From the NCBI GenBank assembly GCA_030272585.1, contig BSYQ01000005.1:5177501-5241500 (forward strand): 64,000 nucleotides of DNA, given 5' to 3'. Under the pieces are notes generated by a model. That model was not told the origin of the DNA. It did no database searches and worked only from the letters and a program-made list of their open reading frames with translations. The DNA comes from Bryopsis sp. KO-2023. Its lineage: Eukaryota > Chlorophyta > Ulvophyceae > Bryopsidales > Bryopsidaceae. Shown here piece after piece: positions 26,808-62,742 of this stretch; positions within the stretch are counted from its first letter, which is position 1; each line of letters begins with the position of its first letter. A program made the translations under genes and the position numbers.

Positions 26808-29800
26808 AAATACAGCTCACCCAGGAGGTGGAGTACTATCCTGAACAGTACAAGGATGTTGTCGTTTTTTACCTTAACCGAAGTATTGTGTTGGGGCCGG
26901 GGGAAGTAGCAGTACTGAGTTTACCTTACGAGCTTAGGGGAGTTCGAGGACCGATTATCGATTGTCTTAGTGCAAAAGGGGTTAGGTTGGTCATGAAACA
27001 GCGGGCAGGAGGCACGTTGTTTGGATACCTCGTTAATGACAGTAGTGAGATCCAGCACGTAACACCAAAAACCAGAGCCTGGTTTATTCCAGGACGATTG
27101 AGTGAACTGATTGATATTGACGGACGATGTGCGATCTCCAGAGTCCGAAGTAATACTTCTGACCGACTGTACGTACAAAAGACAGACAGCGAATGGAGGC
27201 GACGAAAACAGGGATCTACTGAGCAAGGAAAAGAAGGGAGTTGGATTCAGCGCAAGAAAGAGCGACAACATTTAGAACGTGGAGCGACTAAAGTTTGGGA
27301 TGTCCGTCGATCTAAGTGGGGACGATATGGGAAGTGGGATGTCCAGGGAGAGTCGCAGGATGTAAGCGCAGAAGTTATGAACAATGAGTTGTTCGAGCCA
27401 GAAAGTCACGACGAATGTTTGTCGCAACTTATGCAGCGGTTTCCTCGAGTCTTTGATTTGTCACCAGAATCGAGCGGATTGGCACGTGATATGGCCGCTC
27501 TTACTATCACGATGTCTGACTTAGAACAGATTGGAACTGCGAACTTTAGTGCTTTCAGTGACTGGCAGCCGTTATCCACGGGCCAGGAAGGGGCCGCCGA
27601 AACAGAAATCGCATCGCTCGAAAGAAGAGGGATCGTTAAAGAGCTGCGCTGGGACGAACGCGGGTTATTCTCCCAGCCGTTGGTTTTCCAAAAACCAGGG
27701 AGTACATCGGTGCGAATAACGTTGGACTGCCGACGGATAAACAAATTATTTCGAACCTGGAAAACTCCTCTCACACCTGTGAAGACGATTTTGTCTCGAC
27801 TGAACCCCGAGTATAGGGTGTTTTCCGTGATTGATCTTAAAGATGGGTTCTTTAATTTGGGGATTGACGACGAGCTTAGCAAATACTTCTGTTTTAGCAT
27901 GGGGAAGAAGCGGTACCGATTTCAGAGATTAGTACAAGGATTCAACGGGAGCGCATTAATTTTTCATTCGATTATCACGCGCGTACTGGAAGAAGCTCGG
28001 AAGATATTTCCTGATTTAGACGCCGAGGTATATATCGATGACCTCATCATCGGAGCCCGCACTGAGTGGGAACACGATCGTAAGTTACAGTCACTCTTTC
28101 AAATCTTGGACCGATTCGGTTTTAAAGTGAAAAAGGAGAAGGCTCAGCTGAAGAAAAGCCACGTCACGTTCCTTGGATTTGAGGTTTCTCACGGAACAGT
28201 CAGCTTGAACCCGTACTGTCAGAAGCTACGTGAAGGACTACCAAAAATACAAGGGCGTAAGACACTGCAACAAGCGCTTGGGATGCTAAATGTGGTGAAA
28301 GGACATGTACCTGGATTTGCGAGGAAAGTACAGACTATGTACGAGGAATTATCGGCTGTCGGGCGGGAAGCGGATTGGGATCTCGTCAATGAACGTTTTC
28401 AATCAGTGGTGGTGGACGTACTGAGTGCTGTGTACGACATGCGGATGCAGCAGCCAGGGGAGGATTTCCAACTATACACGGATTGGTCGTCAGCCGCCGG
28501 GGGATATGCTTTAACACAAGGTGATCAACTTGTGTTTTTGGGATCACACTTAAATTCTCCGAGCAAAAGGGCAGTATCCAGCTTCCTGGGCGAAGCGCAA
28601 ACAATTGTTCGTGCGCTAAAGAAAGTCGCGTGGATTACGGGAGGAGCAAACGTACAGGTTTTTACCGATTCCGAAGGGTCGGCTAAAAAGTTTAATTCGG
28701 GGAGCCTAACTGACGATTCTGATCTAAGGATGCTGCGCCTGCTCAGCTATATCACAGGAAACTACACGGTCGGCGGCAATCTTCGTTTTACGCACTTGCC
28801 AGGTAAAGTCAATGTGCTCGCCGACTTGCTTTCACGTTGGGCGAGTCATGAGACAGAAGCAAAGCTGACTCTATACCACGTTGACGAAGAAAGAAAGCAG
28901 CGAATAAACCAACTCCTTAGGGAAGCGCACAGGGGTCATTTCGGCGTCGCGAAAATGTTGAAGGTTTTACGGATGCGAGGAGAGAAGATATCCCGGCCTA
29001 TTGTGGAGTCCTACGTGCACGCTTGTGTTGTCTGTCAAAAATACGAGCGACCAAAGGAAAAGGCGCCTTGGGGAGATACGAAACGAGGGGGTTGGCCGGG
29101 ACAAGCAGTCAGTATGGACGTGGTTGGACCTTTCCCAAAAGGGACTGACGGATCCAATTATCTGGTAACCACTATCGATCATTGCTCGCGATTTGCTGAA
29201 GCACGACCTGTGTCAAGTGCGAATGCTGTTGCTGTGAGTCAAGCTTTGGAAGTGTGGATACAATCTCATGGGCAACCTAAGGTTGTCATGACTGACAATG
29301 CTGCTGTGTTTACCTCGCGCCGATTTTCTACGGTGATGGAGAAGTATGGGATCAAGCATGAGTACGTGCCTCCATATTCCCATAAAAGCGCAGGGTTGAT
29401 TGAAAGGTATCACCGCACGCTGGAGGATCGCATCAAGCGAATGACAGAAGGAAAAGTGTTGGAGGAGTGGCCAGAGCAAGTTCAGGAAGCAGAAAAATTG
29501 ATTCAGGAAATGCCACATGATGCTACAGGATTCCCTCCCAGGCAGCTGATGAAAAAGAGAGACATATGGGACCTGCCAATTTCTGACCAACAATGGAGAA
29601 ATGATGTGGGCACTGCTTGGTACCGAGATGCAATTGGACGACAGAAGAGGCAATCCAAACAGAAGTTTGTGGAAGAAAGTTATAAGGCTGGACAGTGGGT
29701 CTGGTGTTATGATCATACTCGGATGAGATCGGAAGGGGAAAAATTGAAAGCATTCTGGTATGGTCCGTGTTTGTTTGATGGGTATGTGTCTAGGCACAGG

Positions 29801-29887
29801 TGTGTGGTTAATGACCCGGATCACAGTAAGTTTTTGACTCACGTTGATTTCGTGAAGCCATGTCGGTTGTCAATGTGGGAGTATTAG
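26657..29887 (+). CDS. Pol polyprotein: reverse transcriptase, RNase H, integrase
   Basis: The frame opens after TAA 26654-26656 and runs to 29887; translation probably enters by frameshift at 26741. After a beta-rich N-terminal module come reverse transcriptase (VRITLDCRRINKL, FSVIDLKDGFFNL, catalytic YIDDLIIG near 28033), RNase H (LYTDWSSAAGGYAL, FTDSEGS, LADLLSRW) and integrase. The integrase has an HHCC zinc domain (HRGHFG... HACVVCQKY) and the D-D-E core (SMDVVGPF, VVMTDNAA, LIERYHRT). A GPY-like end (YGPCLFDGYVSRH) is present; no chromodomain is recognisable. Domain order defines Ty3/Gypsy. All catalytic residues are intact. Confidence 0.93.
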   Translation, partial: EGSQAGHDDFFGESQSAVHYLCSRRSKKRGPGCESSVHSGSDGRTSEEGIKIQLTQEVEYYPEQYKDVVVFYLNRSIVLGPGEVAVLSLPYELRGVRGPIIDCLSAKGVRLVMKQRAGGTLFGYLVNDSSEIQHVTPKTRAWFIPGRLSELIDIDGRCAISRVRSNTSDRLYVQKTDSEWRRRKQGSTEQGKEGSWIQRKKERQHLERGATKVWDVRRSKWGRYGKWDVQGESQDVSAEVMNNELFEPESHDECLSQLMQRFPRVFDLSPESSGLARDMAALTITMSDLEQIGTANFSAFSDWQPLSTGQEGAAETEIASLERRGIVKELRWDERGLFSQPLVFQKPGSTSVRITLDCRRINKLFRTWKTPLTPVKTILSRLNPEYRVFSVIDLKDGFFNLGIDDELSKYFCFSMGKKRYRFQRLVQGFNGSALIFHSIITRVLEEARKIFPDLDAEVYIDDLIIGARTEWEHDRKLQSLFQILDRFGFKVKKEKAQLKKSHVTFLGFEVSHGTVSLNPYCQKLREGLPKIQGRKTLQQALGMLNVVKGHVPGFARKVQTMYEELSAVGREADWDLVNERFQSVVVDVLSAVYDMRMQQPGEDFQLYTDWSSAAGGYALTQGDQLVFLGSHLNSPSKRAVSSFLGEAQTIVRALKKVAWITGGANVQVFTDSEGSAKKFNSGSLTDDSDLRMLRLLSYITGNYTVGGNLRFTHLPGKVNVLADLLSRWASHETEAKLTLYHVDEERKQRINQLLREAHRGHFGVAKMLKVLRMRGEKISRPIVESYVHACVVCQKYERPKEKAPWGDTKRGGWPGQAVSMDVVGPFPKGTDGSNYLVTTIDHCSRFAEARPVSSANAVAVSQALEVWIQSHGQPKVVMTDNAAVFTSRRFSTVMEKYGIKHEYVPPYSHKSAGLIERYHRTLEDRIKRMTEGKVLEEWPEQVQEAEKLIQEMPHDATGFPPRQLMKKRDIWDLPISDQQWRNDVGTAWYRDAIGRQKRQSKQKFVEESYKAGQWVWCYDHTRMRSEGEKLKAFWYGPCLFDGYVSRHRCVVNDPDHSKFLTHVDFVKPCRLSMWEY
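26735..26741 (+). promoter_or_regulatory. Candidate -1 ribosomal frameshift slippery site
   Basis: A run of seven A is placed so that in the gag frame it reads A AAA AAA, the ideal X XXY YYZ heptamer, followed by GGGG. It lies within the gag-pol overlap (26657-26807), and pol is in the -1 frame. No downstream pseudoknot was modelled. Confidence 0.7.
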
Positions 29888-29898
29888 TTCGATAGCGC

Positions 29899-29906
29899 AG
29901 AGGAAG
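29899..29906 (+). other. Probable polypurine tract
   Basis: AGAGGAAG lies two bases before the 3' LTR and is the only purine run there; it is the likely plus-strand primer, though shorter than usual. Confidence 0.5.
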
Positions 29907-29908
29907 CG

Positions 29909-30182
29909 TGTAAAGGATTGAGGGGAAGGAGTCAGAAGATGGGCGCAGGGGATAGGGAAGATGGGTTAGGAAAGTACGAATGTGTATTGTAAAGTGGCAG
30001 TACTGTGGAAGAGGTACTGTGTATGACAAAGCAGTACAGGGACGGAACGGATATTTATTGATGGATGGAAATAGTTGCGATATCTTTGTAAGTCCCTTCT
30101 GGGCCGAGACCTTGTGTGTTTCAGTGTGTTGTATCTGATTGGGTTCATATTCACGCCCCACTCAGAAGTCTCTATTATTACA
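29909..30182 (+). repeat. 3' LTR (274 bp)
   Basis: Same length and, by eye, the same sequence as 24514-24787, followed by the right target duplication GGAAG at 30183-30187. Confidence 0.95.
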
Positions 30183-31085: not shown

Positions 31086-34000
31086 ATGGAGCCGTGGATG
31101 AAGGAGGTGGTCGATTTGGTGAACTACAGGCACGTGCAAATTCGATTACGCTGAAAAGGACTCCATGCTTCTTTTGCTGCCATCTCCACAGCCCCTTTTT
31201 TTCCCCCTGTGTTTTTTATACTTTTTTTGTTTGGTGCATTAAAAAACCTGGGGAAGAAACCCAACAGAATTGCCCTCAATTGTGTTTGATGATAGAATGT
31301 GTTATTTAATGAAGAGGGTGGCAGATTATTTTTTTAATTTATTTTTTGTGATTTGATTTGATATTAGGCCAGAGGTTTTGGATCCTTGGTGCCCTGGAGT
31401 GACAGTCGATCAAATCCGAAAGAAAAGTAAAAAAAGAGGAAATTCGCTCAAGGAGGAGCCGCAATGGTTGAAAGAGTTCAACAAGAGGAAATGGTAATCT
31501 AACAAAAGGATACAAATAAATAACGGTCGAAAGTTACTCAGGAAATTGCATGTATTTTTTATCATCAAAAAGCTGAAATAAACTAGCACACGTACAAATT
31601 TTCAGAGAATCAAAAATGTGCAAAGGGACTCACAATGCATTTTTGTTGGGAAGGACTGCAATCGGCAATTTTTTTGCCTAATGTGAAACGTTTCAGTAGG
31701 AATGTGGAGTGAATCTGCTTTTTGATTTGATAGGGTATTGCCTAAAACTGATGTGGGGGATGATGAAAGCCAATATGAAATGTTCAAAGGGCTGTTTTGC
31801 TCCAAAGAAAAAAAAGAGGAGTTTTCGTGGGTTCATCGATTGCTGACGGAAGGGGTAAGAAGCCCCTGCCAATCATCAATTTTTTCTTCTTTTTTTTTTA
31901 TTTGCATGAATCCATATTCCCATCTTGTTTCGAAGTTTTTTTTTCCCAGCATTTTTTTTCTTCATTTAGTTCTTTTGCTTGCTTATTCCAGTTCCTCGCA
32001 AACTACTTTTCTTTGTTAACCTGTTGTTTTTTTTTTCTCTTTTTTTCTTTCTCCTCTTGTTTTTTTTTTTAATTGTTTTTGAATCTTTGTACAGAGCATG
32101 CTTTTTTTTTTTTGGGGGGGGGGGGGGTGGAGGGATTGACTGTTTTTTTGTTTCATTTTTATCCAGGAAAATGCTGTAATTCCGGAGCATGACATATCCA
32201 CTTTGATGGAAGCTCACAGGAAACTGCTGAGTAGAAATCGTTCCTCTGAAGTGAGTGGCTTTCTTTAATTTCTTTTACTATCATTGAGCTTTTTGGGGGG
32301 GGGATTGTATGTACTATGTTTTTTTCTCAAAAATCCACGGCGTTCAACCTTTATGTGATCGATCAGATTGATCAAAATGTATAAATTGGATCCGGAGATG
32401 TTTTTTTGTGAAAAAAAAAGCATATTAGGAATCTTGTATCTATTTAAAAAGAACGAAATAAATGTTGATGGAAGAAAAATATAATATCCCTTCCTTTTCC
32501 GATCATAGTGAAATCATAGTGGAATCCACCCAAGTGCCTTGTTTCTTTTTCTTCTCAAAATAATATATTATACATAGCTCCAATCGATGTTTGTTGTTTT
32601 TTTTTAATTATTCGAGGTGAATATTTCGTGCGATTCTTCTTCTTACACCAATATTTTTCAGGCGTCGTGTCCAGCCATCAGCGAAAATTGCTCCGGCCGA
32701 TCGTTCAAGAAAATCCCTGGCAGAGAACGTCGAATCAAAGATATTAGTCACCACATCGACTGGGGAAAAGATTTTCACGACGCCATGGAAGAATGCTTGG
32801 ATGTGGAGGCCTCCGATTTTCCATCCACCAAAAGGCCGAGATGGCTGGAATCGATACAGCCCACCGAAGAAAACGTTGAAACGGCAGGGACCAGAGAGGA
32901 ATTGCAACTGCAGGTATACCTCATTTCGCTGGGATTCTCACTTTCATTTTATTTCTTTGAGGGGGGGCTTGTGCAGGCACCTTTATTTTTTGTATCAATT
33001 AGGAAAAAAAGCAATTAATATCTGCAGAAATCATGTTTATATTGTCTAATTGAAGAAAGAATTATGGAATCAAATCCAATTCTATTAAAATAACATGATA
33101 CTCTTGACATGTTTGATTTTGACTAATTTTAGTATTGATTTTTGATTTTTCCGTATGTGTGTGTTAGTTGGACTCCATCGATGAAATTTTGAGGTTGGAT
33201 TTGAACAGCGACCGGATCCAATGGCCTCAATCCCAGAATTCCTCCAATCCTCCAGAATGGAGTTTGAAAACTCAACTCGACAGGATCGCTTGTCGAATCG
33301 ATAGTATTGCCACTCCAATAGAACTCCCCCAAACTGGGGTCGAACTCACCGACTCAATCCCATCAGTGTGTTGCCCCTCAGAAAAGGGTGCCAAGACAAA
33401 ACCCAATCAAAGAGAATCGACTGTGTCTGACATCGGTGCACTGGCTGCAAGTCAGACACTGGGAAATGGAGATGCCGGTTGGGGCGAAGGATTAGCTGGG
33501 CTGGATGTCTGTCAATCAAAAGGGGATGGTAGAGTACCCAAGGCTTTGCTGATGTGTGATGTGGAAATGCTGGATGTGTGTCCCACACAAGAAAATGTTG
33601 GGGAAGTGAAAGGCAAGGATATGCTGATGGCCGATGAGGGGGCGATGGCTGCATGTCAGACACGAGACGGTGGTGGTGAAGGAAAAGACGCAGACTGGTT
33701 TCGATCTCTCTTGCCAGCTTTGCTTCGGACTGCAGACAATGGGGAGGGTAAGCAAGACAAGGATTTGCTCAAAGGGGGGGTTCTGGGTGCACGTCCAACA
33801 TTAGACAATGACATTGAAGTGAGAGGCGGGGACTTGCTGGGGGTTGCTGTGCCAGCTGTATGTCAGACAGAGGGTGGTTTGAGAGGGATAGACGAGGACC
33901 CGGTCCTGTGCACAGGACCTGCGATATGCCAGACTCAGAGTAATGATGTGGAACGAGGAGAGGTCGAGGCATCGTCAATGGCTGTTTTGCCAAACAAGGG

Positions 34001-37000
34001 GGGGGATGTGGAAGCCAAGAACAGAGAAACAGACATGGACGATCCAGCTGTCTGTCATGAAGAAGACATTGGTTTGCACGCCAAACCTGAGGACTCCCTG
34101 ATGGGTGTCGGACCGGCAGCATGTCAGTCGCAAGGAAATAGCAGAGAAGGAAAGCCTGAGGCCTCTTCGATGTCTGTCCCTGGGGTATCAGCTCAGTTGA
34201 GCAATACAGAAAAAAGGGAAACATCAGCTGTATCTCAGACTGGGGTGTTGAAGTTCAATGGGCAGAATCCCCACACTGGGGACAATGTCATGTTCACATT
34301 TGGAATGATTCCCGACCCTGTTGCTTTGCCTCCGGGTAAGGATAGCGACAAGCCGTCTGGGACCGCACCACCAGCAGCGGAACGTCTGGTGGGGAAGAAG
34401 AGTCCAGCTGAGTCCAGCTTGATGAAAGGCACCCCCACCGAGAAGCCCCACACTGGGGATGATGTCAGAAACTCTGGAACAAATCCCAAGCCTGTTGCTT
34501 TGCCTCCGGGTAAAGATAGCGGCAAGCCGTCTGACACCGCACCACCAGCAGCGAAGCGGCTGGTGGGGAAGAAGAGTCCCGCTGAGTACAGCTTGATGAA
34601 AGGCACCCCAAATGGGGAATTTCTGGCAAACCTGGATGTTTTTGTCAAGGTCAGGCCCATTCCGGTGAATTCGTTCGGGAGGAGCGTCGCCAAGATGTCT
34701 TTGAAGCAGGAGGAGCGCTGGGTGACAGGAATTCTGTTGGATATTTTGGAGGAGGTGAAAATGTGCCGGCAGGATCGGGGGGATTGGAAGGGTGGGGATG
34801 AGGAAGACCCTTTCTCGAAAGTGCAAGAGTGGCTGACTGGAATTCTGGCATCGAATCCGTTAAACCATAGATGCTTGCCTGCGTTCGAAAGCTCAATCAC
34901 GCAGGTGGGTCAATTCATGCTGTGAATGTTTTCTTTTTTCCTTTGTTGATAATTTTCAAGGGTTTTGTTTGCATGCACAGAAGTCCTGCTGCTTAATTCG
35001 GAAAAATATAAAATATAAAAATTCCCTTCATAATTTCTTGTGCCATGTGTTTTTGTTTCAAAAACAAAACTCCTTTTCTGATTTCTTGTGCTGTGTTGGT
35101 TTTTGTTCCCAAAACACGTTTTCCAAAAAAAGAAAAACGATTGAAGTTTTGCAAAATGTGTTTGGCCAGGAAGACATCGAAACCTTGAAGGGCCTTTTCG
35201 ATGGAAATCTGGAAGCCTACCTGCTGTGCATGGCAAAGGTGGATCGTGAGCAGAGAGCTTTTCGGACCCTGGAAAAAGCTTGCCTGTATCCAAGGGCTCT
35301 GAAAGCTCGAGAGGCCCACAATGAAGTGGGGTTGCATCAACTGGAGGTGATCATTTCCCTGAAAAGAGCCAGGGTTCGGCAATATCCGAAAACCTACGAT
35401 CGAATCGACACCGTGAATCTTTTCGGGGCATCGACGGAAGAGGTGAGAACGAGTTTGGAGAAGTTTTTTCTGTCAGGGTTGAGAGCAATATAAAGATATA
35501 TATATATATATATATTTAAACAATAATTCTAAGATTTCATTTTATTTTATTTTGGTTAACTTACTTTGGTCTATTTTAAGGTATCAAGGAATGTAAACTT
35601 AATGACATAATTGAATTTTCACCAAGTTCAATGTTTTCTGGAAAAAAATTATGAAACTGCAGAAGTGGAACATGCGAGTTGCAGAAAGGTTAAATCTGTC
35701 CCCGGAAAAAAAAATAAAAAAATAGAGATAAAGAGTTGATGGATTCCTGTCAGGTCTGTTCTGGATGGCAGATATTCGGTTTGAAAATGGGGCGAAACCA
35801 AAAAAAAAAGGAAAAAGAAAATCGTTCATTTGATAGAAAGATGATCTTTGGCTTCCTATGCAGACTCTTTCAACTCTTTGTGGTTTTATTCTTTTTTTTG
35901 TTTGGGCCAGATTCTTTACTCCGATTCAAACACTCCAGAATTTTCTCACGTGGCCGATTTCACGCAAGTGAACCCAAGGCTGTCCAGTTTTGGTAGAATC
36001 AAAAAAGGGATGTACAATCATTTCGTCAAGAGCTGGAATCCAAAAAGGGCGCTGGCCGAGGAAGAAATTTTCGTTCCATTGGCAAAAGATCCTGCTGCCA
36101 AAAGATATGCCGATGGAATCGGGGCCGATCTTCTCATCACCAGCGAAGCACTCAGGTAAGATTCAGGATTTGAATAATTGAGGGAAAATAATTGCTCGTC
36201 TGTTTTTTTCATATTTAAAACATGTCGCATCGAGGTTCCGATGTTTCAAACATTTTGTACTTTTTTCAATCAAAAGAGTGAAAAAAAATTGTAAATTTTT
36301 TTTCGAATCAATTTTTTTGTCTTCAATTTTTTGCAATGAATCCATGTGTGGTTATGAAATTTCCATAAGCGGATTTTTTTTCTTTACCCTGTTCATTCCA
36401 CTTTGTTGCTGCAGGGCATTTGCCAGCGTGTCGATGGATCCTAAGTGTGGAGAAGGTTTTGAAATTCCCTTTTCTTCCAGCCCGACTTTTGCCTCTGGAA
36501 AATTGGGCAAGCGATTAGTCATCGATTCCCCATTGTTGGGAAGAAAATTGGGCCTCAGAGAAAGGGATTGCATGAAATTCGAAGCTCATTTCCAGGATCA
36601 ATATTGCAATGATCCTCGTGATCAGGTGAGGATATGTTCATTTTTTCAGGTGTTTTTATTTTATTTTTTTCATTCAGTTTTCATTTTTTTTCGACCATTC
36701 AGCATGGTTCAAATTCCGATTCCAAGAAGGATATGTCATTGAAACAGAGAAAAAGGGTAGGAAAACTTTTTTCACACTTTAAAATAAAAATATTGACCCA
36801 TTTTTTTTTTAAGCTTTTCCACAGCGTGTGCATCATTGAGATTTTTTTTTAAATCGTGACTTTGTTGCAATTCCAGTTTCTTTTCTGTTTTTTTCCCCAG
36901 TAGCCCTTTTTTTTTCTTTTTTTTTTTTGGGGGGGGGGAGGCAGGTACACCGCTTTCTATGTACATAAATGCTCTTTGCTTGCTTTTTTTTTAAACCACT

Positions 37001-38302: not shown

Positions 38303-40956
38303 GGGTTTTTTGGTTTTTGTGGAAAAGAAATGTAAGTTTCAGAGGGGGGGAGGCTATGTTGAGGTTTTGTGGTTTTTGTGGAAAATAATTGTAAATTTCG
38401 GGGGGGGGGGGGGGGGGGGGGGAGAGGATCCATTGGACTGAAGATAATTGAAGGAAGGTTGTCCCCAAAAGTGGTGGAAAGAGAAAGCAAGTGGGCATTG
38501 AGCTTGAAGGTGGCACACAATGGAGGGGAAAAATCACTTTAGGGCGTAAATATAGAAGGGTTCGCTTGCAAACAGCTGTCGAAAGATCAGGGGTTACATT
38601 GGACAGGGAGTATTGAAACGCCGATGGATGGTTGGTGGTGGCGTCTTAATTCCTAGCTGGAGAAGTCTTGTGTTTCACATGCTTCCATTCTGTGTCGTGT
38701 GTTGAGCACCTTCCAAAACGCTCTATTGGGTTCAGTCCCTACAAATCCGGAACAGGAAAAAACGCGCGAAGAGAGTGAAAGAAACAGGTTCTTCCGTTTA
38801 CCGCTCCACTCAGGACTTGGCCACCGAAATGTTTTCGCATGTTCTTATAGTTGTTAATCTCAAGCGTTCAAGAGTTCAAAAAAAACCAATGTCGCAAGAG
38901 AGGGTCACAACTGTTTGGATAAAGGCGATTTTGTGGGTTTTTCGGAGTGATTTGGCTGCAGTTGATCGATATCGGGAACCAGGTTGTCTGTAACTAGATA
39001 GTTCGGCTGACTGGGGACAGTTAGCAGTTTGTTTTTAGTTGTGAGCGAGGGGAGTCGCTATTTGAAGGAACATTGACTTTGGGAACTCAGTCCTTTTGTT
39101 TTTATAATTGTGGATACTCGAAGGAACTGTGTTCTATACTGTGCGTCTGGGGAAAAAGGGTCGTGACTCCTGCACTGGTTCTCCGTCGGTCAGAATACAA
39201 ACGCCCTCGAACGAAAGGCCAATGGAAGGTCTATCTCAACACAACGGCAATCCAACTTTCGGTTAACCTTGCTCCAAATTGTCAATCAAGCTTGCTCCAG
39301 ATGCGTTTCAAAAAGCAAGAAACGTCTGCGCCGTATTTCGTTTCGCTTCCTTCTGAAAAGCTTTAAACACGACAAAGCTCCTGGTTCGAAATTTAAAAAC
39401 CGGAAAGGGGACCAGGTTGCACTGCCGTTCTAGAACGGAGATCTCCGTCGGGTCGCGTTCTGGGCGTAAAATTGCGCAGACTTGCCAACGCTCCAGCTCT
39501 TCCCAGTTCACCAAGTTCAAACGTTTTTTCACAATCACAGTTTCTTTCAAGTAAGCCTCATTCGCTATGGTTCCGTGTGATCGGAACTGCAGCGGAGAAT
39601 CGCTCGTGCAGCACGTCGAGCAGCACTCATGCTCTCATATTCTCTTCGACAGGAAAAAAAGCTCGAACGAAACTTGCGAGGAATTTTGGGATTTTCAGAG
39701 TAGAGTTCCCCCAAACCGCTCCCTTGCCCCTTATCTTTCGCGCGCACAATTTCCATACATCTCGCGCGACAAGCACAAGAATGTATATTCGTAACGCCAC
39801 ACCCATAACTTGAGTGTCGGCAGTGGACCCGTTCGGGGAGAGAAGCAAAAATCCCAGAGGTACCCAATGTCAAGAGTGCACTGCGCAAAATTTTGAGACT
39901 GGTCAGCGCTCAGTCAGACACGGTTAGATATGTGACGCTGATTTGGCGGCGGAAGTTTACATTCCGTTTTTGGTTCGGTTTCGCTGCTGTGGGGGCTACA
40001 TTTTTGGAGTCGGTTGGGGAATGCGAAGAGCGGTTGCGTGCGTAGCGTGGTGGGTCAATGGGGTGGTCAAAACAACATCTAGAAACCTTTGATATTCCTG
40101 TTGGGCGCGAAGTCACGGCTGTGACTTTTGGTCGAGTTACCGAGTGTTTTCCACGGCTTTGTTTTTTCTGTCGCCGCCGTATTTTTTGCTCGCTTCGTAT
40201 GTTTGATGTTTGACTTTCCATGGCTTGTGCGTGTTTGTATTTCGGTTGACGGTCAGATGGCCTGTTTCTGCATTTAACGGAAGATATCGCGCACATTTTG
40301 CGCGAAACTCTTCTAAGATATGCAAAGCGTGCAAAATTATCCGACCGCTCTTAACGTTTGTCTAATAGCTGCATTCATTGTTTACTTTTCCTTGCGACGC
40401 TTCACTGTCTGAGGGGATAGTGGGAATCCAGTCACTTTTCTTAATCATTTTTATCTTTTTGCTATTTTATTGCACTGTGCTCAGTGAAGCGGATGGATTT
40501 TTGTGGCAGTATTTTGGGCGTGTGCTCTTGTATTCCCTTTTTTAAGGTTCAGTGTGGTCTCCTGGCAATCGTATTGATGTGGCGCTCCTCTCAGTAATTT
40601 GATGGCACAATTGTCTATTCTTTATAACATCGTGATGTTGTCCCATTCGATCTGTTGGGCTGAGCAAGATTTTGAACCTGAATTCAAATCTGGGTTTAAA
40701 ACGATGACAGAGTTGTGGGGATGTTAGGTTTGTTTTTCTTCTTTACTCCTTTGTGGAGTGTTTGGCTGGTGGAAGCACATTTATTCCCGTTTCAATTCTT
40801 GTGTGAGTTAAAACTTTGTGTTCGTTGTGAATTTGTTCTAAAGGAGTAGAATCTCATACGATTGCTCCAAAAAACGAAAGTGGGTTTCAAAGATTTAGCA
40901 ACCGCCTGAGATTGGCATTCATGTTGGCACTAGGGCGAGGGCAGGGTGAATGAGCA
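38303..40956. other. Intergenic region with 3' repeat and G23 run
   Basis: No gene is supported over 2.6 kb. Just past the stop codon a segment starting GGTTTTTGTGGAAAA occurs twice (near 38311 and 38369), and the second copy runs into 23 consecutive G at 38400-38422. The remainder should hold the promoter and leader of the next gene. Open frames at 39073-39366 and 39472-39813 show no family resemblance. Confidence 0.5.
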
Positions 40957-43900
40957 ATGTCTCGCCAACCTGAAAGCATTCCAGCCGGGGTTTCTGCCGA
41001 AAGTGGTCCCAACCTGACGTCTTCCGGTGGAACCTCCGTCTCTTCCGTCGGCCCTGCCAACTGGATTATCGAGGGGAAGTTTTTGCAGGGGTGGAATACA
41101 GGAAAACAATGGCTACAGTACCGTCTTTCAAACAACTGGCTACCAGGCTCCAGCAAAGCCTCGACTATCTCAGCCCCTTCAACAAAATCAGGAGCCAGTG
41201 ATGGATATGAGCTTATCCCTGGAAAACAGTCCGAAATTCTGCCTGCCTCTTCGAGATCGTCCACAACGGACTATCGGCAGAGATCGAATTCCTTTTCAAA
41301 CCACCGATCAGGCAGGTTTGAGCAGCAAGATGGCGGCACCAGAGAGAACGAGGGGCTTCTTGTCGAAACATCTTGGAAGTCTGTACCAAAATGGGTCAGG
41401 CAGCTGGAAAGCTTCAGCCCAGAAGTTCAGTCGTCCCAGGGCAGCGTGGGGCCCAATCTGATGAGCGTATCGTCGACTTCGGATATTTCTCTTCAGCGAC
41501 CTCGACCGGGATACACAGTCGATGAGCCTCCTACTTCACTATCTGTCGAAAGCTTGCCAAGCATGTCGAATCTTGGCCCAGAAGATCGCTTCGAAGGGTT
41601 GAGGAAAGCGGAAATCCATAGAAGGACGATGAGAGATAATTCTACCAGCGAAACCTCAACTGCAGCTCAGGAAGATATCTTACCACGCACTGGAGGGCGA
41701 GAATTGCTTTCATCTCACCGTGTTGAGTTTGATATAGATGCCAGCTTCTCAAGCTGCGAACTGGGCTCGTTTAGTAACCAGGTCAACGCCGTTTTAACCG
41801 CCCATGATTCCCATCTTGATTCGAGGGATACGGACAAGTCCACTTGGTCGCAGTCGCGCAATCCTTCGAAGAGCTTGAGACTGTTGGGGAACGGAGGTTC
41901 CTCCCTGGGAGAGGAGGAGCTTGAATCAGGAACGCCATACACTTCACGAACAACTTCGAGATCCACAAGGACGGCGGACATTTTAGACGGCATGAGTGAG
42001 CTCCTGCAGAGTTCAGGGTCTTCGAGCACCTCTTTTCCCTCGTTGCATTCGCCAGCATCCCCGTCGCAAGGTTATGACGGAGAAAGTTTCTCGACGTTGG
42101 CGACGACATCACATTTTCCCCTGGCCCCGGCAGATGAGCTGGAGAGACCAATACCAAACTTAGTCGTCCGCTCGTCTGACGACATTCCGAGTCTATCCAT
42201 GGCACAACAAGCCCCGCTGGAATACAAATTGGGAGACTATCAGCAATTCGTTATTGGTCCAACGATGCCTGTGACCCCTCGTGATATCACAGTAAACATG
42301 CCTGCCCCCGCATTTCAGCGTGGCAATGAAAAAGGGGAGTGGTGGAGCGGCTATCTGCCAGTGACGAAATTCCAAACAGGAGGGTTTAATTCCTGTGCAG
42401 ACAACAGCAACGACTGTAATAAAAAAGACGAGGGCCAGAGCTCATATGAACCACTGTTGCCCAATCAAGACCAATCGGAACACGAGGTTGAAAACCCTCT
42501 TTGGGAGTCTAAAGGTGAGTGTTGCAGCGGGGCCCCGGATGATCAAATCCCAAAGTCTGAATAGTTTTCGCTGTGGAAATACTTGACTTTTGCGACAAGA
42601 GGATGAAGCCTTGCCAAGTGGGTTGTTTGGGGGTTAGAGCGCTCGTTGGCTGAGATGTGGTGATGATGGTTTGTTCTCAGGATCACACACCGTTGGACGC
42701 TCAAAAGACTCGATTTCATCAAGAGTGGCGGCCGTCTACAACGCTTACAGGGTAGCCGTGAATCTGTGGTCGTTCTGATTCCATTGCAATGAGTCTATCT
42801 CTTTCAACACTGCTTTATCAGCAAGGACCTTTTTTCAATTGCGCGTTCTCTTATGTCTATAATTGTGCCTTTAGGATCGAGCGGGGAGAGCGTCATTTGT
42901 ACGCGATCACAAGGAGAAATTGAAGCGCTCAACCTGTGTCTTGCTCGTGCTTTTCGTTCTTCTCCTCGCGGGTATCGTGGCAGCCTCGCTACTCATACCC
43001 AGGTATTAGATTGGCATTGCACCACTCTCGCCAGAAAAGCACCAGCAACAGCACCATTTCCAGATGTTGATGCAGTAGCTAATCTCTCGACGTTGTCGGT
43101 TTTACAGAGCGAATGAGAAAAACAATAGCAACGTAGAAGTCTCTGCCAGCTCGAACCCGGGATCAATCGATTCTGGCCCGCCGCCACCTGTGGATGTGGT
43201 CGGAGAAATCGTAGGGGGCACTGGGAGTCCTGGTCAACCTCCTGATATTGCAGAGCAATCAATTGCTGGTGGTGGTGATGAATCTGGAGATATCGTGTCT
43301 CAAGGAGAAGAGGATTTCACTCCAGTGCAAGCTCCACCTGAAGCTCAAGCTGTAACAGCACCAGACTCAAGTTCGCCCATTGTTCCCCAAGACCTACCGC
43401 AACAAGCGTTCCAGCCTCCTCCTCCTCTAATCCCATATCCGAGCCCTCCTTCCCCAGTCTCTCCAACGGCCCCCTCTTCCCCGCCATCAAGCCAATTGCC
43501 TATCGCCACGTGCTCTGTTGAAGAAGGCACAACTATCAGAAATTTGGATTCGCTGCCTGTTGGCTCTCGTCAGGAGCTCTTGACATCAATTCAGGGACCT
43601 GAGCTTACCACACTGCGGACCAATCTCCAATCAGACGAATGCTATAAGGTCCAAGTGCACGACTTCATGTTCATTCATTCAGGCCAACGGTGATGTTGAG
43701 CTACTGACAGATTTTCAACCCGTTTTGTTACAAGTATCTAACAAGAATTTCCGTTTTTCCAGATCAAAACGGCCTTGAACGATTATGGCGATGGCACAAA
43801 GGAGCTCAGAGATTTTCTGATACCCTTCAGCAGCTATCTCATCGTTTCCGTATCTCCAAAGACACCCGCTCGCAGAAGCCTAATGGCAGACAACCTGAGC

Positions 43901-46900
43901 GCACAGCGGCAGTTAACAGCAAATGAAAACTTCGGAGATATGACGGTTGTCTACGAGCCTGGAATGAAAAACCTGGAAGCCGAATTTTCTCCTCCTGGGA
44001 ACAGCATCGTTGGAGTCACCACCTCTTTCAACATCAATGGAGGTGGCACTCGAACCAGATCATTTGTTTTTGATGTCAGAGGCGTCGTCGAATCGAGAGA
44101 CGTCGGTTCCAATCCGCCTGATCGATCTTCACCACCGACAGCGGTCATTGCTGAACCCCCCGCAAACCCTGTGCTTGTGGGGGATCTGATTGATTCTGAG
44201 ATTGCACCAGGGATACCACCAGAAACAAGTGATTTGGAAAAAGAGACGCCCCTTGAACTGGGAGAGTCACCGGGACCATCAAGTGTCGAGGTCTTAACCG
44301 AGTCCTCGCCAACATCTGATTACCACCAAGGGAGTGAACCAGCGATTGCAGACCAAGGAGAAGATTCGGCTGCCAGAGTCGCCAAACCACCTCAAAGTGA
44401 GCAATATGGAGAAAACGATGTCGACAATGTTGACGATGAAGTGGAGGTCGTCGAGGAATCGGTTGCACTGTGGCCAGCATCTCACGAGCAACAGGATACT
44501 TCTATGGAGTCTATCGCTCCAAGGGAGGAATCGATTGCGATGTCGCCAAACTATGAGGATGAGCCAAGCACTGGATTATCGCAGGAATTATCTCCGATTG
44601 ATGCAGGACTGGCGTCAGAAGATTATGAGCCGGAGGGTGTTTCCCCACTTCCAGGCTCCGCTGGATTTGCACCAAGACCAGAGAAAACACCTCGTGATTC
44701 AAATGTCATTGCGCTCTCCCCACTGAGCGGTGATTCGCAGTCTGTAGACTTCATAGAGTTACAAGAACCTCCGATTGAGGTGATGCCGCACGATCGACCG
44801 GTCGTGCCTGAGCTCCCTCCGTCTGATAAGTTGGTTGATGCTCCTGAGCAGTCGAAAGATTGGGAGGACGATGAAGTCATCTCTGTTGCACCACAGCCAG
44901 CCGACGGCCTCGATTTGAACTCAGAGTCTGGCAAGAGAGGGAATGATACCCAACGGCGATTGGATTTGGATGAAAGAGATCTGGAAACTGAATTCAAGCA
45001 AATTGTGGAAGAGTTCTCCTCCAAAGGCGTTTCACCAGATTTGGATAGCCATGTGTCCGTCGACAAGGAGTCTGAACCTCCCTCCAACGGACCTGTCGAA
45101 TCTAACATTTGGGAAGATACACAAATTCCGTCGAGCAATGAATTTGAGGATATCAAACGTGAAGTGGACTTATTAGATGACGAATTCGATGGTCCAGCTC
45201 CAGCCCCAATTGAAGCCTATCGAGTTCCCATGTCTGTATTGGGTGGATCTCATGGATCGTATGGATCATCTGGGTCATATGGCGACGGATCCTCTGGAGA
45301 TGGCAGAGAGAAGACAACATTGCAAGTAGGGGAAAGCGAGGAAGCAGAATTTTGGCAGCCAGAAACTGCTCCAATGGAGCACCTCCTGGATGAGCCACCA
45401 GAAGTCACTGCGGATCCACCAAGTGAATCTCAGGCGGATTTGGAAAGGAGAATCGATGAGGAACTGAAAAAAGAGAGTCAAACAATTGAAGAGCTTGATA
45501 ATTTCATGGAGGACGAGGACGTATCTGTACCTCCAGACACATCTGTGGCGGCATCCCCTACGCACACAGTCTATATTGTAATTGGCGAGGAGGAATCTGT
45601 ATTTGTGGATGCTCGGGAAATTGAGCCCACTTCCAACGCTGAAGACAACGAGCCTGCAACGACAGCTCCACCACCGTACGCATCCGAAAGTGATGATCGT
45701 GTTTCGGAACAAAGTTTGGAGAGTTTTGATGATGGGGAGTCTCTTGCCGCGCCACCTACTCTGGACTTCGGAATGGGTGATAAAAAAGATATAGAGGACG
45801 AACTTGAGACAAACAAAGAGAGCGAAGCACCTCTCGCCACAGGACCATCGGTTGTAGATGAGATCAGAGGTGATACATATGTTTCTGATGGCATTTCTGA
45901 ACGCGAGGAAGTCGTCAAGGATGAGAATGGGAAGATGACGGTCGATGAGGAATCTCTTCCTCCGTCGCCATCCCCTGTGGACATCTCAGACAGCGGAAAC
46001 AATTTGGGCGATCAAAGTGAGGCGGAGGGGGAATCTCTTCCGCCAGACCAGTCTTCTATGGATACATTGCAGAATGAAAAACGAACGGAAGATGAAAATG
46101 GGTCGAGCGAATGGGAGCCAGCACCTCCACCACTTGGAATCCTAAATGCGGACAAGAAGAGTGAATTCGTGGGGGGTGAGGCGGATGAGTTCTCTCTCGA
46201 TCCAGCCCCATCTCCTGAGGTAATGAAGGTGGAGAAGGACACCAGTGAAGGTGAAATGGAGGTAACTGACGAGCGTGGGGCATCTTTGGGTCCAGCACCA
46301 TTCCCCTCAGACACGGAGACGCATAAAAAGGTCATGGATAACGAAAACAGCGAAGAGGAAAGTCTTGGTGGGGCATATCCTGGTTTGGCACCGAGCTCGG
46401 GAGATATATTGATGACCAACGCGGAAGGGCCTGTTGGACATGTGGGGGAAAGCGAAATTCACGCACCTGCCCAAGCACCATCTCCCAATGATACTATCGA
46501 AAATGAGGATGTGGACGCTGTGGGAAGGCATGAGCCAGAAATTTCGGAAACCGTGCCAGCTAGCAGTGGTCCACAAGCGGCCACAAGTCCCTTCTCGACC
46601 GACAACGAAATTGAGGAGCAAGGAAAGGGAGCGTCGGCAGTTGTGCCTGACGAGGGCGTTACATCCCCAACAGAGGATATAAGGGAAGTGGGCGATGGTG
46701 AACCTGCGGATGAGGACAAGGAATTGGACGTCCAGGCGGCACCTCCGGGTGGAGACCAGCGTTCAGATGCTATGGCTATCGAGAGCCAAGCCATTCCGTC
46801 CGAAATAGGTGTAGCCACGAGCTCGTCTCAGGTCCAAAAGACTGGGGCGGGCTCCAGCAAAAACTCCGTTGCCGCCGGGGGAGATGGGGGGAATGATGGC

Positions 46901-47965
46901 TTCTCCCTGTGGTGGCTTTGGGTTGTGATGGGAGGAGTGGCGGGGATTGCTGCCGTAGCCTTCTACGCAGCCACCCATGACGCTGCTGGAGGCCGGGGCT
47001 TCAGGAACATGTCCCGAATCAGCCCAGGGCCGGAACCAGAAGCACACAGCGAGGGAGAAAGCTCGAGGGGAAGCGTTCTCCCCGAGATGGACCCCAACTC
47101 CCCCCGAGGAGCGCCCACCTCCATAGCAATATGGAGCGAACAGGAGCGGACGGCGAAGATGCGCGCGGACCTCGATAGCGCTGGACACGGAGGACCCAAG
47201 AAGCGCGGCACCGAGGGGGACCCGTCAGTGCTGTCGAGCGTCTACTTCCCGTTCAAGACCTTGTTCGGGGCGATCCACACGGGCATCAACACGGTGTTCA
47301 GCAAAGGCGACGACGTGCAATCGGAGAAGGTCATCGTCAGCCCCAGCAGATCGATGACACCAGAACTGGACACGGAGCGGTGCAGAGCCCCTGATGAGGG
47401 ACCATCTTCAAGGATGGGAGAGCCAACGCCAGCCAAACAAGACACTCCAAGTGCGCGATCCACGATCCCCACCGTGCCAAACAGCACACGAAAGGAATCA
47501 TCTGGCGGCTATTTGGGGGATGCAATGTCAACAGGGAGCGAAATCGGGTGCTCAGAGATGGATGCAGAGGAAGTGGAGGAGCCCCTCATACCAAGAAACA
47601 TGGCGATGAACATCAGGACGGAGGGCTCTTCAATGGATTGGTCGCACCTCAAGACAAAGAATGACTTCCAGGAGCCCTCGTCCCCATCTTTCAGTCCCCG
47701 TGTCGCAATAAAGGAGATGGTCAGTATGGTGTCTGCGATCTATCGGAAGGTGTGGAAGAAGAACAACCAAGTGACTTCCAGCGGCACGTCTTACAGCCAC
47801 GCCACAAGCGGAGAACAGTCAATGCACTGGGCGACAAAAATTCAAGGATACAGTGCTGGAACCAGTGGGGTGTCTCTGAGAACTGACCTCCCAAGCTTGG
47901 AAAGCTACTATGCGGAAACCTATGGGGTGTTCTCTGGGGCTGAGCGCCAGGAGCACGAGTTTTAA
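40957..47965 (+). CDS. 2166-residue two-pass membrane protein with long acidic domain, family unknown
   Basis: Five exons (40957-42514, 42681-42751, 42875-43002, 43108-43648, 43763-47965) sum to exactly 2167 codons. The ATG is preceded by an in-frame TGA at 40951. Residues 1-560 are Ser/Thr-rich without a signal peptide. A first helix (CVLLVLFVLLLAGIVAASLL), after a basic stretch KEKLKRS, lies near residues 563-583. A small globular part (CSVEEGTTIRNLDSL to SFVFDVRGVV) follows. Then come about 900 residues rich in Glu, Asp, Pro and Ser, with loose 26-31-residue repeats (ESLPPSPSP, DPAPSPE, APAQAPSP). A second helix (LWWLWVVMGGVAGIAAVAFY) sits near 1815, followed by about 330 more residues. 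Both tails hold acidic-dileucine-like motifs (YEPLLP, EEPLIP). Topology with both ends cytosolic is inference. Confidence 0.85.
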
Positions 47966-50132: not shown

Positions 50133-51163
50133 ATGAAAATTCCCTCGACAACTTTCTTCGTTGGTTTGATTTGGTGTTGGTCGGTTGTTCTGGCGTCCCC
50201 GTCCCTAGAACACGTAAAACGCGAAGGTGTATATTTTCACTTGGTTTCCGTGTTTGGTTTCCCTGGCCCAGTGTGTTGGTAGTTTTACGCATCCCTTCCA
50301 AAACCTCGGCAAGGAAAAACTTTCGAGTTTTTTGTTTTGTGTTGCAGACGTTCTGGTTAGGGGTGCGTCGCGGCAGGTGCTGCAAGATGAAGTCGCCGCG
50401 AAAATTCTCGTAGGTGGCCCCAAAGATTCGCATTCCACTCTCAAGGCTGAACTCTTTCCAGCACTACCGTCGACTCAACAAACACATTAAAAAAACATTC
50501 GTCGCGAAAAGTACTGCAGCTTCCGGGTGTGTTGGTCTACCAACATCAATCGAATGTTGTGCAGAGATTCAACACACATCCATTATAACACCCATTTTAA
50601 TTTCATGTGGTTTGATGGCCAGGGGGGTGAAACCGCTGCTGAGGGTCGATTTCCATATGCAGTTTCACTGCAGGATTCTGGAGGTAATCACAGATGTGGG
50701 GGAACCCTGGTGGGCAAGCAGTGGATCTTGACAGCTGCACATTGCATCGACCCAGGATTCCCGAGCGCACTGGGACGAAATCCCAATGTTGTTATTAGCA
50801 TCTATGCATCGGATGGCTCTGGGGGAGCTTCCGAGGTCAGTTTTTCCTCAGAAAAAATTATAACACTCATCAAATCATGGTGGTGGGGCCACTGGTCAGG
50901 ATATGAAGAGAATATGATCAAGGGAAACCAAGTGTGTCTTTTGCATGGGCTGATTCTAGTGATATTTCTAAATATGACCTGAGTGCTTGCAGAAATTAAT
51001 TGGTTGGGTGACAGGATGTTCATCTCTAAAAAGGAAGTGTGACCATGGTGCAGATCAAGAGGGTCACCGAAAGCTATCTCCATCCGAAGTGGACAGGAAA
51101 GGCAAGCATTTGGCCAGATGGCATGTGTCTAAAGCGACTTCAATCGCTTTGATCGTTCCTCTC

Positions 51164-51197
<34 letters not shown>

Positions 51198-53207
51198 AAA
51201 AAAAAAAAAGTTCAATAACCCCACCCCCCCCCCCCCTAAAAAAGGGCACATGCTTGAAGAAAGCAAAATGATGGTGTTATTCTTTGGATCCCGTTGCGCT
51301 GCTTTCTTTCATTACTGATTCATGGTTTTTCTGTGGGGGAGAGGGCAGCATTTCGGGATCAACCGTCGCTTCGTTTATCACAGTAGCTGAAAGGAACCTT
51401 ACATCTCTTTCCAAAACATTACTTTGTTTTTCATTCTTTCAATGCATTGAAATCACATTTATCAAACCCACGTGATGTCAAATGAACTGCAGTGTTTTTC
51501 CTTGCATGCAGTTGGAGGATGGGTTTGACATCGCTCTGCTTCTTCTTCCAAGTCCATCGGTGCATAACCCTGTTGGCCTACCAAGTGCCCAGGCCGAGTT
51601 CAAGAGAAGCTCCAAACTATTGGCGATCGGACTGGGGAAAACGGGGCAGGAGCCCTTGCCAGATTTCCTTCAGCAACTGGAGTTGGAAGTGGTGTCCGAG
51701 GTGAAATGCACGGAGCGGTGGAAGGCAAGCGTTACCATCCGAAAAGAAATGCTGTGTGCGTTTTCTTTACAAGGAGATGTTTGCAGAGGTTAGTGTAGAA
51801 TCGAGTATTTTACCCTTGAATTTTTTTTTGTCCTCCATATCTTGTTGGGTATTTTTTTGCCCTTTCTAAAAAAGTATTGGTGTCGAAATGACCCTGGAAA
51901 TGTTGAATGTCGATGGATGGGATGTTTTGGGTTAGTTCACATTTTCCTCCTTTTCCACTGAAATATGGACAGATTTTAACCGCCTTTCTCTAAAAAATAC
52001 CTTTGTGTTTTGGGGCTTCCCTCCTTTTGTGAAAAAAGGTGATTCTGGGGGTGGCCTCTTGCAAGTCAACGCTGGCGATCAAGGGTTGAATGTCAGTATC
52101 GGGAATCCTGAGCTGGACATCGTTGCTGGAGTCACCTCTTTCGGGACCACATGCACCACTAGTGCCGACCTACAAAGGGCTGTCAAAAACCCTGGGGTTT
52201 ACACTCGAGTTTCCAGCTTCCGGGACTGGATAATGGACACCATGGAATCGAACCAGGGGGCAGGTGGGGACTCCCCAGCCCCAGCTCCGAAACTGCCACC
52301 GGTCAAAATCGGAGAAAAAGACGACTTGATGTATTACTGGCCTGGCAACGGATGTCACTTTTTCAAAACCTTGAAATGCGCTGAGTTTACCAAGATCGGG
52401 GTGTCGAAGTGTGGGGGCGACTGGGATTTGGCGATCACAGGAAACTTTGATGGGACCGGCTTGACGGACGTTTTCCTTTACAAAAAGGATGGGACCGGTG
52501 CTTTCTTGATGCATGGCGACTCAGTGACAACTCCGGACGCCAGATATGATGTAACCCTGGAGAAGGGCTGCGAAATCATCCTCCCTGGCGATTTCAATGG
52601 GGACGGGACCACAGATGTTCTCTGCTATGTGAAAAGCCAAGGGCTGGGCGTCAAATACCTGATCCAGAAGGGAGGCAAACTGGAGGTGCTGTTCAAGCAC
52701 ACGTACTGGAGGAAGACTTGGACCTCCATCGCCACCGGGAATTTCGATGGCAAGGGGGGACCCACAGGGCTCATGTTTTACGATGGCACGAAAGGGGAAC
52801 TGGAGTTCTACACCTCCCTGAAAAACGGAGAAATCATGGGCATCGCACCCACTCTGACGAACGTCGGGGTTTGGGATCAGGTTTTGACCGGTAATTTCGA
52901 CGGGGCAGGGAAAACCACCGGGGTGATGTTCTACAAACAGGGCCAGCCGATCATTTTCCACTCCACGGATGGGAAGGGGGGCATCAAGGCATTGGAGAAG
53001 ACCCCCACGTTTCCAAACGATTGGGATTTGATCATCCCTGGAGATTTCCATGGACGTGGAGGCACCACATCGCTGTTGTTTTATGAGAGGAAAACCGGGG
53101 TGGGGGCATTTTACACCACGGATGGGAAGGGAGGCTTGTCTATGACCTTCCAGAGCGATACCTTTACCAAGACTTGGACGAACATCAGCCCAGGCACTTT
53201 TTCTTGA
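50133..53207 (+). CDS. Secreted trypsin-like serine protease fused to VCBS/FG-GAP-like beta-propeller
   Basis: Six exons (50133-50226, 50348-50409, 50623-50835, 51054-51101, 51512-51788, 52039-53207) give exactly 620 residues. A signal peptide (MKIPSTTFFVGLIWCWSVVL) and a short propeptide end at K|ILGGETAAEGRFPYAVSL, the S1 zymogen activation site. The triad is present: His in LTAAHC, Asp in FDIALLLL, Ser in CRGDSGGG. The residue six before the catalytic Ser is Asp, predicting cleavage after Lys or Arg, so self-activation is possible. After about residue 330 come about five blades of 45-50 residues built on TGNFDGTGLTD or PGDFNGDGTTD, a calcium-binding VCBS/FG-GAP pattern, closing with a partial sixth. 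Intron 4 uses a GC donor (AAG|GCAAGC). Protease and domain order are confident; substrate is unknown. Confidence 0.92.
51166..51233. repeat. C22-G-A21 homopolymer junction and second C-run in protease intron
   Basis: An intron tract of 22 C, one G and 21 A is followed by a further C-run and A-run. On the sense strand it is C-then-A, the opposite orientation to nearly all similar tracts in the window. Confidence 0.85.
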
Positions 53208-61037: not shown

Positions 61038-61227
61038 CGCGGTGGTTTTTTGCGAAGGAAATCCCCGAGAAATCGATCGATCAACGGAACGATCGCTCGT
61101 TGGCGGGGTTGGGGAGTCGATGAATCGTCGATAAGAGAGTTTTGGATGGAACAGATTGAATCGAAATGCTACAAAACCAGCACTGGACGTTTCGCGTTAT
61201 GCTTCGCTGCTGCACAACATCATCATC
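61038..61227. promoter_or_regulatory. Probable bidirectional promoter, EMB2735-like/MSRB
   Basis: Only 190 bp lie between the two divergent start codons, both for organelle-type proteins. Shared promoter inferred from spacing; no specific element identified. Confidence 0.5.
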
Positions 61228-62742
61228 ATGTCTTGTGGAGCTCTTCGCGCCAGCGGATTAGTTAGAGCAGCGAGCGGCGTTTCCCGTATTCCTTTGGTTC
61301 GTGGAGTTCGATTGGCACGTGGGCAGTGTTCGCGCGTTTTCGCTGCCGCCGACGACATGTCGAAAAAAAACCTCGATAAAACGACATCCAATGAAGACTG
61401 GATGAGCATCTTGTCTCCAGAAGAGGTTCGTTTTTTTTTCCTTTCTCTTTTTTTCTTTTTTTTTATTGCGGGATCACCAATTGTACGAGTTGGCTTGTTA
61501 CAAGAAAACACACTCACACACACATGGTTTCACATCATATATTATTATATTATTTCTTATTATTATTTTCTTTTTTTATTTCTTATTATTATTTTCTTTT
61601 TTTATTTCTTATTAGTATTTTCTTTTTTATTTATTTATTTATTTTATTTGGTTTGGTTTGGTTTATTTCGTTTTGTTTTTTTTTTCTTTTCAAAGTTTCG
61701 AGTTTTAAGGATGAAGGGAACTGAAATGCCGGGAACCGGAGCTTACAACAAATTCAACGAAGCGGGTGTCTACAATTGTGCAGGATGCGGAGCCCCTCTC
61801 TTCACGTACGCCTACAATAAACATCTTTTTAATTTTTATTTTTTTTCCAAACAGGCAGATTTTCTTCTGTGCTGATCACCGTCGCATCAACTGAATTTAA
61901 CCGTATGTTTGGGCCCATCTGGTGTTGATTTGATGCCGATTTTGGCTTTTTTTTTCGGGGGTTGAGGGAATTGTACGTAGCCACACCCAGAACTTTTTTT
62001 TTTTGCCAAAGAAATGTGTTATAGTCTGACTCAGAAGTAAACCACCGTTTCATCCCAATGTTCGTATCTAGCTCTCTTCCCCAAAGGCAAGCAAAGAAGA
62101 AACTGAGTCGAGAACCTCCAGAAAAAAAACGCTGGCGATCGGCTAATGTATGTGTGTTTTTTCCTTTGATTTGTAAATGCAGTTCTGAGCAGAAGTTCGA
62201 TTCTGGTTGTGGATGGCCTGCATTTTTCGACGAAGTGCCCAACTCCATAGACAGGGAAGTCGACTCTTCGATGGGTGCAGTTCGAACCGAAATCCTGTGT
62301 AAAAAATGTGGAGGGCATTTGGGGCATGAATTCAAAGGAGAGGTGATTGCTTGTTGAAAAACTTTGATTTCGTTTTTTTTTCTGGACTTGGGTTTTGTTC
62401 CCAGAATTGGGAATCCCCAGGGTGGAAACAATCGATGGAAAAAAAAAGAAAAAGAAAAAAAGCATTCTTGAAAAGTAAAATTAGGTTCGGGGACGGTGGT
62501 GTGCAAAGCATGCATATAGATGCCCTCTTTCATTTCTATTTTTTGAGAACGAGCACAAAAAAATGCTATGCCACATTTTTTGTGAACGAAAAAGATGCGT
62601 GCTTTTTCGTGCTTGTTTTTTTTTTTCACCCCAATTATTTTCAACCCATTTCTGTGTTCCTTTGCAGGGCTTCCCTAACCCAACCGATATTCGCCATTGT
62701 GTCAACAGCGCTGCCCTCAAATTTAAGAAAAAAGATGAATAG
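61228..62742 (+). CDS. MSRB: Peptide methionine-(R)-S-oxide reductase MsrB, organellar
   Basis: Four exons (61228-61425, 61696-61805, 62183-62342, 62668-62742) join in phase to 180 residues. The first about 45 residues, rich in Arg, Ala and Val (starting [16 protein letters not shown]), look like a plastid or mitochondrial targeting peptide. The MsrB fold follows: [44 protein letters not shown], and the active site [11 protein letters not shown] with its catalytic Cys. Two CxxC pairs (CAGC and CKKC) make the structural zinc site. The enzyme reduces methionine-R-sulfoxide in oxidised proteins using thioredoxin. Upstream of 61228 the frame is open but has no ATG. Very confident. Confidence 0.96.
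62012..62083. repeat. 72-bp dispersed intron repeat, copy 2
   Basis: Second copy of the segment at 12361-12432, here in the sense orientation in the second MSRB intron. Differences are about 6 or 7 substitutions, mostly C/T or A/G. Confidence 0.85.

Follow-up and report, generated by a model that had tools for sequence, protein, structure and literature searches.

An orphan, predicted two-pass membrane protein with a giant acidic loop in the green alga Bryopsis sp. KO-2023

The window analysed here, 64,000 nucleotides from the genome of the giant coenocytic green alga Bryopsis sp. KO-2023 (PMC12509668), carries a five-exon gene that runs from a start ATG at 40957 to a stop codon at 47965 (Table 1). 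Splicing of the five exons gives a protein of 2,166 amino acids with no internal stop. A protein search that took as query the 160 N-terminal residues of the last open frame (43742-47965, which contains exon 5) led to the deposited hypothetical protein BSKO_06446 of the same alga, whose gene is placed on a contig of 7,048,199 bases, and full-length comparison showed 2,166 of 2,166 residues to be identical. The first-pass annotation, which had proposed five in-phase exons, was thus right in arriving at the deposited model. BSKO_06446 carries neither a function name nor a precomputed Pfam domain in its deposited record, and a literature search for the locus tag found no mention of it.

Several other features share the window. 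A 1,940-residue single open frame on the reverse strand (16335-22157) combines a NACHT NTPase domain with many HEAT repeats, an immune-receptor-like plan. On the forward strand, a Ty3-type retrotransposon (24513-30182) has overlapping frames for gag/protease (24744-26807) and for reverse transcriptase/integrase (26657-29887); its long terminal repeats, each of 275 nt (24513-24787 and 29908-30182), are identical, and the insertion is therefore probably recent. The same strand holds a 585-residue open frame (33168-34925) whose C-Q-T type units recur on visual inspection and which matched no Pfam family at E up to 0.1; two trypsin-type protease pieces (50491-50982 and 51936-53207, within 50491-53207), the second followed by FG-GAP-like repeats; and the first part of a gene for SelR (methionine sulfoxide reductase B; 61135-61875), the frame of which includes a T-rich, intron-like stretch.

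Table 1. Exons of the BSKO_06446 gene and the part of its putative folded domain in exon 5 (positions in the window)
Feature	Positions	Strand	Content	Basis
Exon 1	40957..42514	+	Residues 1-519; predicted cytosolic N tail, Ser-rich, disordered type	Splice and deposited model
Exon 2	42681..42751	+	Residues 520-543, N tail	Splice and deposited model
Exon 3	42875..43002	+	Basic juxtamembrane stretch and helix 1 (566-584)	Splice, codon use, charge counts
Exon 4	43108..43648	+	Pro-rich stalk (about 588-719; PSPPSPVSPTAPSSPPS at 697-713) and start of putative folded domain	
Exon 5	43763..47965	+	Remainder of putative folded domain, acidic part of loop (about 877-1811), helix 2 (1818-1836), C tail (1838-2166)	
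Folded-side part in exon 5	43763..44092	+	Residues 767-876	Charge-hydropathy plot; low-confidence beta-strand models

The exact codon count on which the five-exon model had been put forward is correct at 2,166 but weak as evidence, since a scan of GT-AG combinations in ranges around the same junctions left 4,188 open models, 95 of which yield 2,166 residues. By a consensus score with assumed weights, the deposited model ranked second of the 4,188 (20.19), behind a variant of 2,168 residues in which the intron 4 donor lies 6 nt later (20.52). Codon-use scores trained on exon 5 favoured the correct forward frame in exon 1 (0.089 versus -0.242 and -0.169) and in exon 4 (0.291 versus -0.305 and -0.373). 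For exon 2 the in-frame score of -0.069 was the highest of the forward frames yet lay under two reverse frames (0.062 and 0.056), and for exon 3 both other forward frames scored above the in-frame value (-0.305); the Leu/Val-rich helix encoded there makes this exon unlike the acidic training exon.

The scores of exons 2 and 3, the slightly better-scoring alternative donor of intron 4, and intron 2 and intron 4 donors that fall below zero with the same weights speak for a model that has fused two genes or taken a wrong junction, most likely at intron 4 or in the link between exons 1-2 and exon 3, and the deposited model may itself depend on the same sequence signals. We nevertheless consider such an error improbable: the deposited model is identical, intron 1 has an almost ideal donor (AAG|GTGAGT), and the triplet immediately before exon 3 is an in-frame stop codon. 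No in-frame start codon for exon 3 was found ahead of helix 1, the first Met after residue 500 being M807, past that helix. The deposited annotation and the lack of an in-frame start in exon 3 support a single gene spanning all five exons, as far as can be judged from sequence; the helix-1 part of the gene may also have an alternative first exon.

Simple hydropathy and counts of flanking charges were used to predict the topology of BSKO_06446. As the first-pass annotation had noted, two clear membrane helices enclose a giant loop: their Kyte-Doolittle means are 3.11 (helix 1) and 1.96 (helix 2), against 0.97 for the third-best window of the protein. Counted over 15 residues, K+R/D+E is 6/2 on the N-side and 1/2 on the C-side of helix 1, and 0/2 on the N-side and 3/1 on the C-side of helix 2. 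Positive charges thus lie on the tail side of both helices, and by the positive-inside rule both tails are predicted to be cytosolic, the pattern of a two-pass protein with both ends inside. The N terminus is not strongly hydrophobic (best 11-residue mean 1.02, at 28, among windows starting at 1-50), so that hydropathy indicates no N-terminal signal peptide; helix 1 could double as an internal signal anchor.

The two tails had also been described as oddly alike, a view that did not hold. Their local alignment scored 48.0, a value reached by 88 of 200 shuffles (mean 47.6), and they share 47 3-mers (46.7 expected) and three 4-mers (4.5 expected). Origin of matched tails by duplication was rejected, the similarity being at shuffle level. 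What they do have in common is one EPL(L/I)P each and a general Ser-richness (17.0% over residues 1-575 and 15.5% over 1850-2166). Joint occurrence of EPL[LI]P in both tails was met in none of 20,000 shuffles, a figure that applies to a pattern picked after being seen; the segments around it aligned at 28.0 versus 25.6 (550 of 2,000 shuffles reach it) or, with softer gaps, at 46.0 versus 36.2 (195 of 2,000). The canonical acidic-dileucine form is [DE]xxxL[LI], which neither EPLLP nor EPLIP fits, contrary to the earlier assignment; true matches are present elsewhere in the N tail (DGYELI at 82 and ENEGLL at 130), as are tyrosine-type YxxPhi motifs. Of the aromatic/basic helix near the membrane that had been claimed for both tails, the sequence shows a basic/aromatic stretch in the N tail only (about 534-562), and this stretch is absent from the top five amphipathic windows there; in the C tail the highest-ranking windows begin at 2081 and 1930, some 245 and 94 residues beyond helix 2.

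The loop proper (588-1814) comprises 1,227 residues with a net charge of -190, and Glu, Ser, Pro and Asp dominate residues 610-1820 (12.3, 11.8, 11.1 and 8.9%, respectively), in agreement with the roughly 1,230 residues first described. Most of the charge lies in residues 875-1810 (net -171), and each full 100-residue bin from 888 onward carries between -15 and -26. In a charge-hydropathy plot the stalk (588-719), the acidic part (877-1811) and both tails fall on the disordered side, the tails barely so, and residues 720-876 are the sole stretch of the loop on the folded side. The loop has no more than two Cys, at 721 and 764, and both lie early in this stretch. From these sequence properties, the loop would begin with a Pro-rich stalk, continue with a single small domain that is probably folded (about 720-876) and end in some 935 residues of acidic chain of the disordered type.

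Tandem Repeats Finder returned short arrays only (45244-45282 and 47268-47294). An ESL-x-PAPSP pattern recurs by eye, but tandem repeats were rejected for the acidic loop, autocorrelation over 880-1812 being not above that of shuffles; within 1401-1760, 30 of 200 shuffles equalled the strongest lag (30). A single motif regex matched at four places in the acidic part (shuffle mean 0.7, maximum 5), too few to claim a repeat. No complete EF-hand loop pattern and no Pfam family for it were found, a partial match at 1506 having Q in place of an acid at position 12. Acidic runs of at least four residues number only two (EDDE and EDED), and the calcium binding suggested in the first-pass annotation is accordingly not specially indicated, at least in a strong form. 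The surface or matrix role suggested there is tentative.

Searches for relatives returned BSKO_06446 alone. No Pfam family matched the three exon pieces (E up to 0.1) or the whole protein (E up to 10), the latter including the formin homology domain, and no PDB sequence matched the domain (E up to 1) or the whole protein (E up to 10). Protein searches with the domain (E up to 1), the helix-1 region and the C tail (both E up to 10) gave the self-match only, among 312, 642 and 7,138 candidates, respectively; candidates had to share exact words with the query and be of similar length, and distant or shorter relatives could for that reason be missed. The absence of a known family, which had been proposed at the outset, is in line with all these searches. 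In the DNA of its own assembly (91,088,769 bases in 28 contigs), window bases 43500-44500 matched one place, the gene itself, and there is therefore no near-identical second copy of this kilobase. AlphaFold2 run without an alignment built beta strands at a pLDDT of 52 for residues 767-882 and 34 for residues 716-878, models too poor to use. Foldseek with the 767-882 model gave 266 matches, none at E 0.001 or better; the 50 best of the 266 were all neuraminidase chains (best E 0.17, TM below 0.3, rmsd 12-16), which we rejected as chance beta-sheet matches.

The loop carries sequence signals of the glycosylation type. It contains 48 AP/SP/TP dipeptides where 32.5 would be expected (a count attained in 2 of 1,000 shuffles), ten X-P-X-P clusters, a pattern of our own choice, against 2.7 expected (1 of 1,000 shuffles), and five N-glycosylation sequons. 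The tails show no excess of AP/SP/TP, with 9 versus 11.1 in the N tail and 10 versus 7.2 in the C tail (132 of 1,000 shuffles). Published arabinogalactan protein (AGP) filters include an N-terminal signal peptide, a total PAST of about 50% (common) or 42% (high-PAST groups) and, for low-PAST AGP-like stretches, at least five glycomodules, at least 60% PAST and an index of at least 0.20 (PMC5266747). Total PAST is 35.2% in the whole protein and 35.0% in the loop, which rules out a classical AGP. In our own implementation of the AGP-like rule, where the index is the number of modules divided by length in residues, residues 697-713 of the stalk are the only stretch of the whole protein to pass the low-PAST thresholds (six modules, 94.1% PAST, index 0.353). 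At loose thresholds the loop, with 11 modules in two chains, is not clearly above shuffles (mean 4.3 modules; 113 of 1,000 reach it), and this measure is non-specific because residues 1959-2003 of the predicted cytosolic C tail pass as well (eight modules, 53.3% PAST, 0.178). Extensins are defined by at least two SPPP repeats (PMC4769139); BSKO_06446 has no SPPP and no YxY, and the absence of SPPP rules out an extensin.

AGPs have been reported in Ulva (PMC10762512) and long chimeric extensins in green algae (PMC4769139). With the chimeric AGPs and extensins of green plants BSKO_06446 shares a Pro-rich stretch and clustered AP/SP/TP on the predicted outer side, but it differs in its mostly acidic composition and low PAST, its two membrane passes and its lack of a known partner domain. 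The extracellular part of class I formins is Pro-rich and O-glycosylated, and these proteins have been proposed to coordinate wall, membrane and cytoskeleton (PMC9232206); for SYFO1, one of the formins, a role in mediating a membrane-wall continuum has been reported (PMC8231094). On these accounts the likeness to class I plant formins is one of mechanism only, in that a Pro-rich extracellular part is joined to a membrane anchor and a cytosolic part, whereas BSKO_06446 has no formin domain and carries its loop between two helices.

In pherophorin-type algal matrix proteins a Pro-rich rod adjoins a globular domain. The stalk and putative domain of BSKO_06446 resemble this arrangement, but the protein has no Pfam match, is predicted to be membrane-bound and has only two Cys in its loop. 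As BSKO_06446 fits no family definition completely, we leave it unassigned; among orphans it is of a familiar general type, being a membrane-anchored green algal protein that is acidic and rich in Pro.

The absence of a detected relative would probably make BSKO_06446 a lineage-specific surface component, and our preferred, still tentative reading is that of a two-pass plasma-membrane protein particular to the Bryopsis lineage, whose lightly glycosylated acidic loop ties the membrane to the wall matrix. We infer location, glycosylation, binding partners and function as follows. Helix 1 would act as a signal anchor that leaves the N tail in the cytosol while the chain is threaded outward, and helix 2 would return it, so that both Ser-rich tails, as predicted from hydropathy and charge, remain inside. 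The Pro-rich and probably O-glycosylated stalk would keep the small folded domain away from the membrane, and the long acidic disordered chain, with its scattered AP/SP/TP sites of the glycosylation type, would occupy the gap between plasma membrane and wall as a tethered polyelectrolyte. Coupling to the wall matrix might be direct, by glycans, or by divalent-cation bridges to sulphated polysaccharides, and phosphorylation, together with sorting signals, would retain the tails inside and direct their sorting. The protein would then resemble class I formins and other membrane proteins linked to the wall in its way of working, not by descent.

The charge pattern with both termini inside, the Cys pair of the loop, the AP/SP/TP excess, residues 697-713 and the five sequons all favour wall coupling. 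The low total PAST, the lack of SPPP and the non-specific outcome at loose AGP thresholds count against it; sulphated polysaccharides would not be the first partners to expect for a polyanion, and the [DE]xxxL[LI] and YxxPhi matches of the N tail equally fit sorting to internal membranes. It is accordingly possible, though doubtful, that the loop projects into the ER, Golgi or vacuolar lumen as a low-affinity cation buffer or lumenal scaffold, with tails that bind coat or tether proteins. The topology is compatible with any endomembrane and the strong negative charge of residues 875-1810 would suit such a buffer, but the acid is spread out with no full calcium-loop pattern, and the AP/SP/TP excess better suits a secreted glycoprotein. 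Rather unlikely, in our estimate, is a fast-evolving filler protein, the product of a gene that is young or in rapid divergence, with a loop that serves no sequence-specific purpose other than bulk and charge, as might be the case in gametes or wound gel. The self-matches of the protein searches and a long low-complexity chain whose acidic part lacks significant periodicity are what such a gene would show; on the other hand, it has a stretch of the folded type with two Cys and two well-placed helices, and the limits of the searches could hide relatives.

To our knowledge, no protein that fastens the Bryopsis membrane to its wall has been identified so far, and BSKO_06446, under the wall-coupling reading, is a large orphan candidate of the surface type for this task; if located elsewhere, it would be one more uncharacterised lineage-specific disordered membrane protein. 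Bryopsis rebuilds its cell from extruded protoplasm, and its protoplasts reportedly stay alive in seawater for 10-20 minutes while lacking a membrane (PMC3252328). That double-tethered brushes of two-pass acidic glycoproteins, found solely in Bryopsis or in siphonous green algae, fasten membrane to wall and aid resealing after wounding is a further extension, but a long shot.

At the 5' end of the gene, a short forward frame (40950-40973), noted by eye, begins with an ATG at 40950, comprises seven codons and a stop, and overlaps the start codon at 40957; it might reduce translation of BSKO_06446.
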